From Streptomyces sp. ICBB 8177 (GTDB lineage Bacteria; Actinomycetota; Actinomycetes; Streptomycetales; Streptomycetaceae), in contig NZ_NSKH01000018.1 of assembly GCF_003144095.1 (NCBI RefSeq), forward strand, positions 1,836,183-1,900,182: a stretch of DNA of 64,000 bases, written 5' to 3'. How positions within the stretch are numbered: position 1 is the stretch's first letter; every line of letters starts with the position of its first letter. Under the pieces are notes generated by a model, which did not search any database, had not been told where the DNA came from, and was given only the letters and a program-made list of their open reading frames with translations. This document shows, in pieces, positions 9,356 to 11,760 of this stretch. The position numbers were made by a program, and so were the translations under genes.

Positions 9356-9694
9356 TCAGACCCGGCCCCGGCACAGCTCCAGCAGCGTCATCGCCAGCGC
9401 GGTGCCCGGCTTGCCCAGCTGGTCGCTGTACGTCCCGATGATCTCCATTTCGCGTGCCAGGTTGACGCGCCGCCCGCCGGAGCCCAGGCGGGCCCGCTGG
9501 ATGCCCTCGGACACCGCGACCCGTTCCCGGACCAGCGCGACGATCCGCCGGTCGAGGTCGTCGATCCGTTCCCGCGCGCCGGTGATCAGTTCCGCGGCCT
9601 CGTCGGTGCGCGCGCCGGTGTCGACCGCCCCGGCCGCCGTCCCGATCGCGGTCGTGGCCTCCGTCGTGGCCGTGGCCGTGCTGCTCGTGCTCAT
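9356..9694 (-). CDS. Chorismate mutase
   Basis: This 112-residue protein has the AroQ helical fold. A Thr/Ala-rich N-terminus of about 35 residues is followed by the ERIDDLDRRIVALVRERV helix, then the second helix with NLAREMEII and the short C-terminal helix ending LLELCRGRV. It converts chorismate to prephenate, the branch point to phenylalanine and tyrosine, in the cytoplasm. AGGAG at 9702-9706 on the plus-strand numbering sets the ATG. No signal peptide is present, so this is not the secreted *AroQ type. Its 5' region carries a short Phe/Tyr-containing ORF and a 16-bp perfect hairpin, suggesting attenuation. It is divergent from guaA. Confidence 0.88.
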   Translation of the reverse strand: MSTSSTATATTEATTAIGTAAGAVDTGARTDEAAELITGARERIDDLDRRIVALVRERVAVSEGIQRARLGSGGRRVNLAREMEIIGTYSDQLGKPGTALAMTLLELCRGRV

Positions 9695-9750
9695 CCGGTG
9701 GCTCCTGCCTGTGGTGCGGAGCCCCGCCGCGCGTACGGTCGCGGAGACGC

Positions 9751-9786
9751 CAGGCGCCCCGGACCGAAACCGGTCCGGGGCGCCTG
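9751..9786 (-). terminator. Candidate attenuator hairpin before chorismate mutase
   Basis: The arms 9751-9766 and 9771-9786 are perfect 16-bp complements with a 4-nt loop. The hairpin lies 20 nt after the stop of the small Phe/Tyr ORF and 56 nt before the chorismate mutase start, on the same strand. No U-tract follows, which is common for streptomycete terminators. A terminator or attenuator role is inferred from position. It is symmetric, so it could also work on the plus strand. Confidence 0.6.
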
Positions 9787-9805
9787 ATGGATGTCTGGGG
9801 TTCGT

Positions 9806-9877
9806 TCAGACAGCGTGACCATGGCAGCCGGGCCGGCCGGTGCCATAGGTAAACGCGAAACGCGTGCCGCTGAACAT
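9806..9877 (-). CDS. Putative aromatic-amino-acid leader peptide (23 aa)
   Basis: The ORF encodes MFSGTRFAFTYGTGRPGC followed by HGHAV, with Phe at positions 2, 7 and 9 and Tyr at 11. Two of these aromatic codons are TTT and TAT, which are rare in such a GC-rich genome. A near-consensus -10 box CATAAT (9884-9889) ends 6 nt before the ATG, so the mRNA would be leaderless, as reported for other bacterial leader-peptide transcripts. It is followed by the 9751-9786 hairpin and then chorismate mutase. The arrangement copies classical Phe attenuators. Function is inferred from content and position; the ORF could be chance. Confidence 0.5.
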   Translation of the reverse strand: MFSGTRFAFTYGTGRPGCHGHAV

Positions 9878-9883
9878 GCCGCC

Positions 9884-9889
9884 ATTATG
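9884..9889 (-). promoter_or_regulatory. -10 box for the leader/chorismate mutase transcript
   Basis: The minus strand reads CATAAT, five of six matches to TATAAT, 6 nt before the leader ATG. No good -35 is visible 16-18 bp upstream. Confidence 0.45.
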
Positions 9890-9946
9890 CCCGACGCCCG
9901 GCTGCTCCGACCGCCTCCTTCCCCAGGGCCGCCCACGGGACCCCCT

Positions 9947-10008
9947 GCAAGCCCGCCCACGAGGCCGCCCGCAAGCCCGCCCACGGGACCCCTGCAAGCC
10001 CGCCCACG
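9947..10008. repeat. Three copies of a 15-bp motif between chorismate mutase and guaA
   Basis: GCAAGCCCGCCCACG occurs at 9947-9961, 9971-9985 and 9994-10008, with 23-24 bp periodicity and shorter degenerate copies on either side. No gene is apparent in 9890-10090. Confidence 0.7.
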
Positions 10009-10097
10009 AGCTCGCCCACGAAACCCCGGTGAGGCCGCCCCGAAGCCCGCCGCACGCCCGCAACCGGGCGCCGATCCGGCAACCGTCGTATCAACGG

Positions 10098-10143: not shown

Positions 10144-11760
10144 GTGGCATCAGCGACCCCCGCCCCGCTCGACAACGCGACGCCGGACACCCCGGACACC
10201 CCTGACGTCGTTCTCGTTGTCGACTTCGGAGCGCAGTACGCCCAGCTCATCGCCCGCCGCGTCCGCGAGGCCCGGGTCTACAGCGAGATCGTGCCGAGCA
10301 CCATGCCGGTCGCGGAGATGCTCGCCAAGAACCCGAAGGCGATCATCCTGTCCGGCGGCCCCTCGTCGGTCTACGAGGAAGGCGCCCCGCGGCTCGACCG
10401 TGCGCTGTTCGAAGCCGGTGTGCCGGTCTTCGGCATGTGCTATGGCTTCCAGCTGATGGCCATCACCCTCGGCGGCTCGGTCGACAACAACGGCCGCCGC
10501 GAGTACGGCCGCACCCCGCTGCACGTCGCCAAGCCCGGCTCGACCCTGTTCGAGGGCACCCCGGACGAGCAGACCGTGTGGATGTCGCACGGCGACGCCT
10601 GCTCGGCCGCCCCCGAGGGCTTCACGGTCACCGCCTCCACCGACGAGGTCCCGGTCGCCGCCTTCGAGAACGACGCGCTGCGGCTCTACGGCGTCCAGCA
10701 CCACCCCGAGGTCATGCACTCCACGTACGGGCAGCAGGTGCTGGAGCACTTCCTGTACCGGGGCGCGGGCCTGGAGCCCACCTGGACCACGCACAACGTG
10801 GTCGAGGAGCAGATCGCCGCGATCCGCGAGCAGGTCGGCACCAAGCGCGTCATCTGCGGCCTGTCCGGCGGCGTGGACTCCGCGGTGGCCGCCGCCCTCG
10901 TGCAGAAGGCCGTCGGCTCCCAGCTGACCTGCGTCTTCGTGGACCACGGGCTGTTGCGCAAGGGCGAGGCCGAGCAGGTCGAGAAGGACTTCGTTGCCGC
11001 CACCGGCGTGCAACTGAAGGTGGTCGACGCGCAGGAGCGGTTCCTGACCGCGCTCGCCGGGAAGACCGACCCGGAGGAGAAGCGCAAGATCATCGGCCGG
11101 GAGTTCATCCGGGTCTTCGAGCAGGCCGCCTCCGAGGTCGTCGCCGACGCGGGCGCGCACGGCGAGCAGGTCGAGTTCCTGGTGCAGGGCACCCTCTACC
11201 CGGACGTCGTGGAGTCCGGCGGCGGCACCGGCACCGCCAACATCAAGTCCCACCACAACGTCGGCGGCCTGCCGGAGGACCTCCAGTTCCGGCTGGTCGA
11301 GCCGCTGCGCAAGCTGTTCAAGGACGAGGTGCGCAAGGTCGGCGAGGAACTGGGCCTGCCCTCCGAGATCGTCTGGCGCCAGCCGTTCCCCGGCCCCGGC
11401 CTGGGCATCCGCATCATCGGTGAGGTCACCCGCGAGCGGCTCGACCTGCTGCGCGACGCGGACGCGATCGCCCGCGAGGAGCTGACCGCGGCCGGCCTCG
11501 ACCGCGAGATCTGGCAGTGCCCGGTCGTGCTGCTGGCCGACGTCCGCTCGGTCGGCGTCCAGGGCGACGGCCGCACCTACGGCCACCCGGTCGTGCTGCG
11601 CCCGGTCTCCTCCGAGGACGCGATGACCGCCGACTGGTCGCGGCTGCCGTACGAGGTGCTGGAGCGGATCTCGACGCGCATCACCAACGAGGTCGCCGAG
11701 GTCAACCGGGTCGTCCTCGACGTGACGAGCAAGCCGCCGGGCACGATCGAGTGGGAGTGA
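10144..11760 (+). CDS. guaA: GMP synthase (glutamine-hydrolysing)
   Basis: GuaA aminates XMP to GMP using glutamine and ATP. The 538-residue protein has the full two-domain layout. The class I glutamine amidotransferase comes first ([11 protein letters not shown], nucleophile Cys99 in [13 protein letters not shown] triad His and Glu near 187-189). The N-type ATP-pyrophosphatase follows (P-loop GLSGGVDSA at about 239-247), then the XMP-binding dimerisation domain ending KPPGTIEWE, which is the family's invariant C-terminus. GTG is chosen because GGAAGG lies 6 nt upstream. The first 20 residues are a Pro/Asp-rich extension. A 13-bp-stem terminator follows directly. Confidence 0.97.

Follow-up and report, generated by a model that had tools for sequence, protein, structure and literature searches.

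The chorismate mutase (CM) gene in the stretch of DNA analyzed here, 64,000 nucleotides from Streptomyces sp. ICBB 8177 (hereafter the window), is preceded by a short leader that is real, widespread among Streptomyces relatives and, judged from its sequence, most readily accounted for as a new Phe/Tyr attenuator whose mechanism is of a known kind. We propose that it acts as a ribosome-mediated transcription attenuator that would sense charged tRNA-Phe and tRNA-Tyr and control CM, a reading to which we assign a probability of roughly 0.88. The sequence itself gave us the parts of the leader, their conservation, the codon content and the co-evolution of hairpin A, antiterminator and terminator hairpin T. 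The elements of the locus, in window coordinates, are as follows.

10144-11760, plus strand: guaA, divergent from CM; the name was read from the sequence, not from a search.
9884..9889, minus strand: -10 box CATAAT, from which a leaderless transcript is predicted to begin at the A of the leader ATG or close to it.
9806..9877, minus strand: leader peptide ORF of 23 codons, MFSGTRFAFTYGTGRPGCHGHAV followed by a stop codon; the in-frame start, without a stop before the core, is present in 108 of 108 leaders.
9845..9853, minus strand: proposed sensor codons UUU-ACC-UAU (Phe-Thr-Tyr), chosen for the conservation of the core codons.
9819..9848, minus strand: hairpin A (segment 1:2), 5' arm 9848-9837, 3' arm 9831-9819, -17.5 kcal/mol.
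9792..9812, minus strand: hairpin B (UGUCUG/CAGACA), around the leader stop codon and nested inside the antiterminator.
9775..9831, minus strand: putative antiterminator, segment 2 (9831-9818) with segment 3 (9788-9775), enclosing hairpin B.
9751..9786, minus strand: terminator hairpin T (segment 3:4) of 16 perfect base pairs closed by a GUUU loop, -38.5 kcal/mol.
9702..9706, minus strand: AGGAG, the likely ribosome binding site of CM, read from the sequence.
9356..9694, minus strand: CM of the Rv0948c (AroQ-delta) type, assigned by NCBIfam and PDB homology.

The initial annotation had described a 23-residue ORF with three Phe and one Tyr, two of these aromatic codons being rare, which lay behind a -10 box at leaderless distance and ahead of a perfect 16-bp hairpin and a CM gene, and had read the whole as a Phe/Tyr attenuation leader. 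Each of these parts was found in the window, and together they support that reading at the level of sequence. On the minus strand, CATAAT (9889-9884) is followed by a gap of 6 nt and then by ATG at 9877. The ORF from 9877 to 9806 encodes Phe at positions 2, 7 and 9 (UUC, UUC and UUU) and Tyr at position 11 (UAU); none of the 45 Phe codons in three long genes of the window is UUU, and one of their 44 Tyr codons is UAU. The hairpin extends from 9786 to 9751 and ends 57 nt before the CM start. The CM product is a mono-functional protein of 112 aa that matched NCBIfam NF005894 with 115.4 bits (cut-off 73) and is homologous to the Rv0948c structures PDB 5mpv/2qbv (E 5e-14 to 8e-14), while its score against Pfam CM_2, 25.8 bits, was slightly under the cut-off of 27.

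In the ORF list of the window the leader is not an entry of its own but forms the C-terminal part of an 85-aa ORF with a TTG start; we favored the ATG as its start because the spacing between -10 box and ATG is fixed across genomes. A mechanical scan, by its own consensus, detected no promoter and no terminator. The 188-nt leader region folded with a z-score of -5.4 against 200 shuffles. At least four Phe/Tyr residues within 10 positions were present in 2 of the 442 window ORFs of 15-35 aa, and one of these two has a -10 box at leaderless distance. The possibility of a chance ORF was ruled out by the conservation of the leader together with the scarcity of such ORFs in the window, and it is the conservation across genomes that decisively places the leader beyond chance. 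Several copies of a CCCGCCCACG-like repeat were seen by eye between guaA and the leader promoter, at about 9930-10050 of the window.

We collected CM homologues in the family from a genome scan (46 loci), from a protein search of 200 family genomes, 139 of which had a match (30 loci returned), and from the upstream regions of 40 of the other 109 matching genomes. The resulting 114 loci (74 plus 40) had a tblastn match to CM. The leader is present at 108 of them, in 101 distinct versions, and its carriers include Streptomyces albus, S. varsoviensis, S. himastatinicus, Actinacidiphila glaucinigra and Wenjunlia vitaminophila. A genome of the same genus as the window genome (G001) and Streptantibioticus parmotrematis have identical leaders (L002 and L031), which places the window in Streptantibioticus or close to this genus. 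Among the six loci that lack it, one is a truncated contig (L069) and five are distant homologues (L071-L074 and L114).

The RNA model R1 matched 221 of 249 family genomes at E ≤ 1e-3. At E ≤ 1e-13 it still matched 170 of 249, which by our own count of the table come from 16 of the 17 genera; the remaining 51 matches were weak (1e-8 or worse), with 48 in genus g15 and three in g7. Twelve genomes lacking a strong leader match were checked; none has a close CM homologue, and each has one PF01817 gene. Leader and close CM homologue are absent together from genus g15, in which five tested genomes contain a single PF01817 gene each. Because the absence of the leader coincides with the absence of the close CM homologue, we conclude that the leader travels with the gene.

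Within the window's own genome, a search with the RNA model at E ≤ 10 returned 15 matches. The single strong one is the CM-leader locus, and the 14 weaker ones all had 32 bits or less, two of them lying on the opposite strand of this locus. The DAHP synthase of the same genome (L248) has no aromatic-rich ORF on the sense strand of the adjacent 600 nt scanned; the reverse-complement scan gave one, in two versions, at the other end of the locus. The genome also encodes a second CM-like gene (L160, G000 C22:377689-377925, PF01817, 82 bits). No aromatic leader was present in the 600 nt scanned there in either orientation, and a comparison of an L160 piece, whose orientation was assumed, with NCBIfam gave no match.

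The initial annotation had named as evidence against its reading a conserved hairpin beside a start or aromatic codons that are not conserved. The opposite was found: start, frame, aromatic codons and hairpin are all kept in leaders from 16 of the 17 family genera, and Phe and Tyr replace each other. The conserved features are the leaderless start, the motif F-x(0-1)-F-[T/S]-Y-G and the rare codons UUU and UAU. A -10 hexamer ending 6 or 7 nt before the start codon was identified in 97 of the 101 distinct leaders (CATACT in 70, CATAAT in 14, others in 13). The rule applied was a match at 4 of 6 positions; four leaders had no passing hexamer and were left out, and the codon counts were made over the other 97. 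UUU encodes the core Phe in 95 of these, and UAU encodes the core Tyr in 95. Upstream of the core the aromatic codons are UUC (113), UAC (18) and UUU (3), so that UUC or UAC accounts for 131 of 134. The distance from start to core is 18, 21, 24, 27 or 33 nt, and the frame is always kept. Among the last seven codons, at least two are aromatic in 95 of 97 leaders and a single one in the other two.

Exchanges of Phe and Tyr upstream of the core occur for example in L044, L078 and L095, and other genera have RFFFYG (L107), AYFFTYG (L083) or GFFTYG (L115). The few deviants carry His (L091) or Gln (L108) at the core Tyr position, one Phe fewer (L027) or a Trp (L105). UUUACCUAUGGC and the RNA 3' of it show strong nucleotide conservation. 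On the 3' side of Tyr-Gly, the frame of the peptide differs between clades, which end in GCHGRAA or VRLPWSCCLSN before the stop codon, and the RNA is unchanged. Hence, the constraint appears to be on the peptide up to the Tyr and on the RNA beyond it.

The RNA can form alternative structures, in which segment 2 is common to hairpin A and the antiterminator, and segment 3 to the antiterminator and T. The antiterminator, a predicted pairing of segment 2 with the 5' arm of T, is an addition to the initial annotation, as are the relatives before DAHP synthase described below. In an alignment of the 101 leaders, A plus T were 94.3% paired, compared with 31-47% when the structure was slid. T has 7 of 15 pairs changed on both sides (96 distinct rows), and the covariation is located at its base and beside its loop. 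The CGCCCCGG core of T is almost invariant, which we attribute to segment 3 also pairing with segment 2 in the modeled stalled state. Hairpin A includes the Tyr codon (9847-9845) in its 5' arm, and its helix 14-24/31-41 has few covarying pairs. In two Streptomyces leaders (L033 and L037), an insertion has remodeled the 3' arm of hairpin A but left its pairing to CCUAUGGC (the Tyr-Gly codons) in place, and in the stalled state of L033 the rebuilt arm also pairs with segment 3. Read from the sequences, GUCUG/CAGAC of hairpin B is swapped for GCUUG/CAAGC, GCGUG/CACGC or GCAUG/CAUGC in other leaders. By eye, the 3' arm of hairpin B also seems complementary to the RNA just past T, and both sides change (L115, L035, L036, L105 and L106); this could be an extra regulatory pairing or chance.

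We modeled the stalled state by omitting the RNA covered by a ribosome at UAU, with an assumed footprint size, and by stopping the transcript at the end of segment 3. Pairing of segment 2 with segment 3 around hairpin B was seen in 41 leaders folded in this state, and at least six such pairs formed in 101 of 101 leaders. The antiterminator structure was 93.1% paired (helix 1, 96.2%), compared with 27-49% when slid. The covariation of its pairs in a MAFFT alignment was not significant, as 340 of 500 shuffles matched the count of covarying pairs and 46 of 500 the covariation score. Covariation is uninformative for the antiterminator because its core is almost invariant, and we therefore used a permutation test in which the pairing of each leader's own halves was compared with that of halves swapped between leaders, using 21 family representatives of at most about 80% identity. 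The own halves fitted better for the antiterminator (z -3.5) and its inner part (z -4.2; 0/500 permutations each) and for T (z -9.3, 0/500). The values for hairpin B and hairpin A were z -2.2 (11/500) and z -1.8 (13/500), and the negative controls were null, with z -0.5 (149/500) and +0.2 (286/500).

A wider set of 31 representatives that included other families gave z -6.4 for A, -4.0 for the antiterminator and -11.5 for T (0/500 each), with two null negative controls (-0.3 and +0.2); it left out 8 of 149 leaders that were not anchored (L083-L085, L088, L097, L201, L238 and L240). For the antiterminator, CM leaders taken alone gave z -5.3 (23 representatives), and DAHP synthase leaders alone were null with z +0.7 and 370/500 (8 representatives). 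An earlier version of the swap test pointed in the same direction. The permutation support for the antiterminator may carry some phylogenetic or base-composition signal.

The structure of T also bears on an improbable alternative, in which the leader ORF stalls ribosomes and thereby controls Rho-dependent termination, RNA stability or CM translation, and not an intrinsic terminator. Terminators of streptomycetes are frequently imperfect, and the T of the window is followed by hardly any U-tract (GCGUCUCC), and both points speak for this alternative. However, many relatives have a U-rich tail after T, for example UCGUUUUCC, T is the best-supported co-varying helix, and it finishes 57 nt before the CM start.

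We examined how the RNA of the window would fold at different stages of transcription. The free full-length RNA folds into A plus T. When the RNA 5' of 9833 was hidden, the antiterminator was the minimum free energy structure for transcripts ending at 9775 to 9766 (-19.5 to -20.7 kcal/mol), and it yielded once the 3' arm of T emerged. When the RNA 5' of 9795 was hidden, corresponding to a ribosome at the stop codon, T alone formed. Naked, unstalled RNA cut at 9766 also favored an antiterminator-like fold, and A is not the best structure at every length. T (-38.5 kcal/mol) is at equilibrium always more stable than the antiterminator, for which the window gives about -19 to -21 kcal/mol, and antitermination must therefore be kinetic.

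From these data we infer a scheme that would link a leaderless start of transcription and translation with ribosome stalling, with the efficiency of termination and with the direction in which CM is regulated. RNA polymerase would start at the leader AUG, and because of this ribosomes would load without a leader sequence. With Phe and Tyr plentiful, the ribosome would reach the stop codon and keep segment 2 off segment 3, so that T (3:4) would form and CM would be off. With Phe-tRNA or Tyr-tRNA scarce, the ribosome would stall on UUU or UAU and cover the 5' arm of hairpin A. Segment 2 would then be free to pair with segment 3, giving the antiterminator with hairpin B within it, which would delay T and allow RNA polymerase to proceed into CM. 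By position, a ribosome at Phe-2 misses the arm of hairpin A and one at Phe-7 covers only part of it; that upstream stalls would cover so little of A may explain why use of the rare UUU and UAU is limited to the core. As in classical attenuators, the codons of the leader ORF match the amino acids of the target pathway, sequence and folding give a mutually exclusive antiterminator and terminator with a common segment, and the sensor codons are sited so that a stalled ribosome would cover segment 1 and free segment 2.

The class-wide search with R1 counted 296 genomes, 79 of them at E ≤ 1e-5, and that with a broader model, R2, counted 394 genomes, 94 of them at E ≤ 1e-6. We read 57 loci (L183-L202 and L211-L247), comprising 55 outside the family and two second matches inside it; the R1 matches were entered as the best 19 outside the family plus one second match inside, and weaker ones were read where the R2 search recovered them. 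Eight of the 57 precede CM, in five other families, and the CM leader peptides outside the family include MFDQRFFYYG, MTRSAFFFYG and MTSAATRFFYGY. Unexpectedly, a sister set of 40 leaders precedes DAHP synthase, in two families (L185-L190, L192-L197, L200, L211, L213-L234, L238-L240 and L244). The identity of the DAHP synthase came from NCBIfam for L187 and from tblastn or a visible reading frame for the others. Nine terminator-like matches (L202, L236, L237, L241-L243 and L245-L247) had neither CM nor DAHP synthase by tblastn or visible frame and were set aside.

The aromatic codons fit the target, with Phe/Tyr in CM leaders and mostly Phe/Tyr/Trp in DAHP synthase leaders. Trp codons are present in 37 of the 40 leaders before DAHP synthase (for example MQRNFWRFYGY and MRTAFWFWYGD), compared with 0 of 8 CM leaders outside the family and 1 of 97 inside. 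One family contributed 38 of the 40, which therefore represent few independent events, and the other family's two are among the three that lack Trp. The DAHP synthase leaders are apparently an all-aromatic attenuator. We give even odds to the broader joint claim that one homologous leader RNA family acts as an aromatic attenuator across much of Actinomycetes, preceding CM in six or more families and DAHP synthase in a further two, that its sensor codons have been retuned to the branch under control (Phe/Tyr where this leads to Phe and Tyr, Phe/Tyr/Trp where it is the common trunk), and that sensing is concentrated in the rare UUU/UAU in or beside hairpin A.

These comparisons make it very improbable that the conserved RNA is the aptamer of a riboswitch whose ligand is a metabolite (Phe, Tyr, prephenate or chorismate), the ORF being incidental. 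The strong nucleotide conservation of UUUACCUAUGGC and the RNA downstream, along with the lack of conservation of the peptide tail, would suit an aptamer. However, the start codon lies at a fixed distance from the -10 box and is in frame in all 108 leaders, the indels that precede the core leave the reading frame intact, Phe and Tyr are exchanged, and Trp is added before DAHP synthase. Moreover, A, B and T are simple competing stems, and the leader stretch matched no Rfam family at gathering score, the best sub-threshold match having 20.4 bits. The only match of the window to Rfam 15 at gathering score was a ZMP/ZTP riboswitch located elsewhere (RF01750, 61550-61636, plus strand, 49 bits). Scarcely credible is a constitutive upstream terminator, or an independent small RNA or small protein gene, unrelated to CM regulation: the hairpin by itself resembles a strong terminator and 9 of the 57 wider matches are terminator-like without CM or DAHP synthase after them, but each aromatic leader that we read at these loci is followed by CM or DAHP synthase, g15 lacks both the leader and the close CM homologue, the aromatic codons suit the pathway, and the halves of the antiterminator co-evolve.

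We compared the proposed Phe/Tyr attenuator with known systems. A wider survey of attenuation is reportedly that of Lopatovskaya et al. 2010. Our literature searches found no description of the CM leader, although Lopatovskaya 2010 and Neshat 2014, the original paper on aroR-aroF, could hold one. The initial annotation thus stands in that no Phe attenuator of a Streptomyces CM was found described, but in recalling only Trp and branched-chain leaders as actinobacterial precedents it overlooked aroR-aroF. The enterobacterial pheL-pheA system belongs to another phylum and has another RNA, whereas the CM leader is leaderless and also has Tyr codons; its target is a bifunctional CM-prephenate dehydratase, here replaced by a stand-alone 112-aa CM of the Rv0948c type. 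No homology to the pheL leader RNA was found, as judged by Rfam gathering scores and not by a direct pheL alignment. The likeness, as far as the available text of PMC11802643 describes pheL-pheA, is in the Phe-containing leader peptide, the dependence on Phe-tRNA and the chorismate mutase activity in the target.

The nearest precedent is another actinobacterial aromatic attenuator, aroR of Corynebacterium glutamicum, in which a Phe-Tyr-Phe leader precedes the DAHP synthase gene aroF (available text of PMC4046766 and PMC11802643). Its target is DAHP synthase and not CM, although some relatives of the CM leader do precede DAHP synthase; the systems were compared by these descriptions and not by RNA sequence. 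The same accounts, in their available parts, report no CM target. In Streptomyces lividans, amino acid genes are preceded by short leader peptides, most of them leaderless (trpL, leuL, ilvL, alaL, thrL and metL); these differ from the CM leader in being for other amino acids (available text of PMC8079986). The transcriptome-based list of eight S. lividans leaders given there has none for Phe/Tyr, and the words 'chorismate' and 'phenylalanine' are absent from the main text as available (PMC8079986). The trp attenuators of Streptomyces and Corynebacterium resemble our leader in having three mutually complementary GC-rich segments and differ in being Trp leaders, according to the available text of PMC1262725. 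A comparative actinobacterial survey from 2005 reported no RNA element for Phe/Tyr. The terms 'chorismate' and 'leader peptide' are absent from the main text of three transcript-boundary studies of Streptomyces (PMC8914203, PMC6742748 and PMC8780764). A Term-seq study of S. clavuligerus reported 96 novel premature transcription units; 'chorismate' does not occur in its available text, and its data tables might hold the CM leader (PMC8269248).

Overall, our sequence analysis suggests that the leader very probably lets Streptomyces relatives switch on CM when Phe or Tyr is short. It would fill a missing regulatory step, the control of chorismate mutase by Phe/Tyr in these bacteria. A single locus would allow testing how leaderless leader peptides sense tRNA charging, and the leaders before CM and DAHP synthase offer a natural comparison of codon content with pathway branch. 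The leader is also a plausible engineering target for natural products derived from aromatics.
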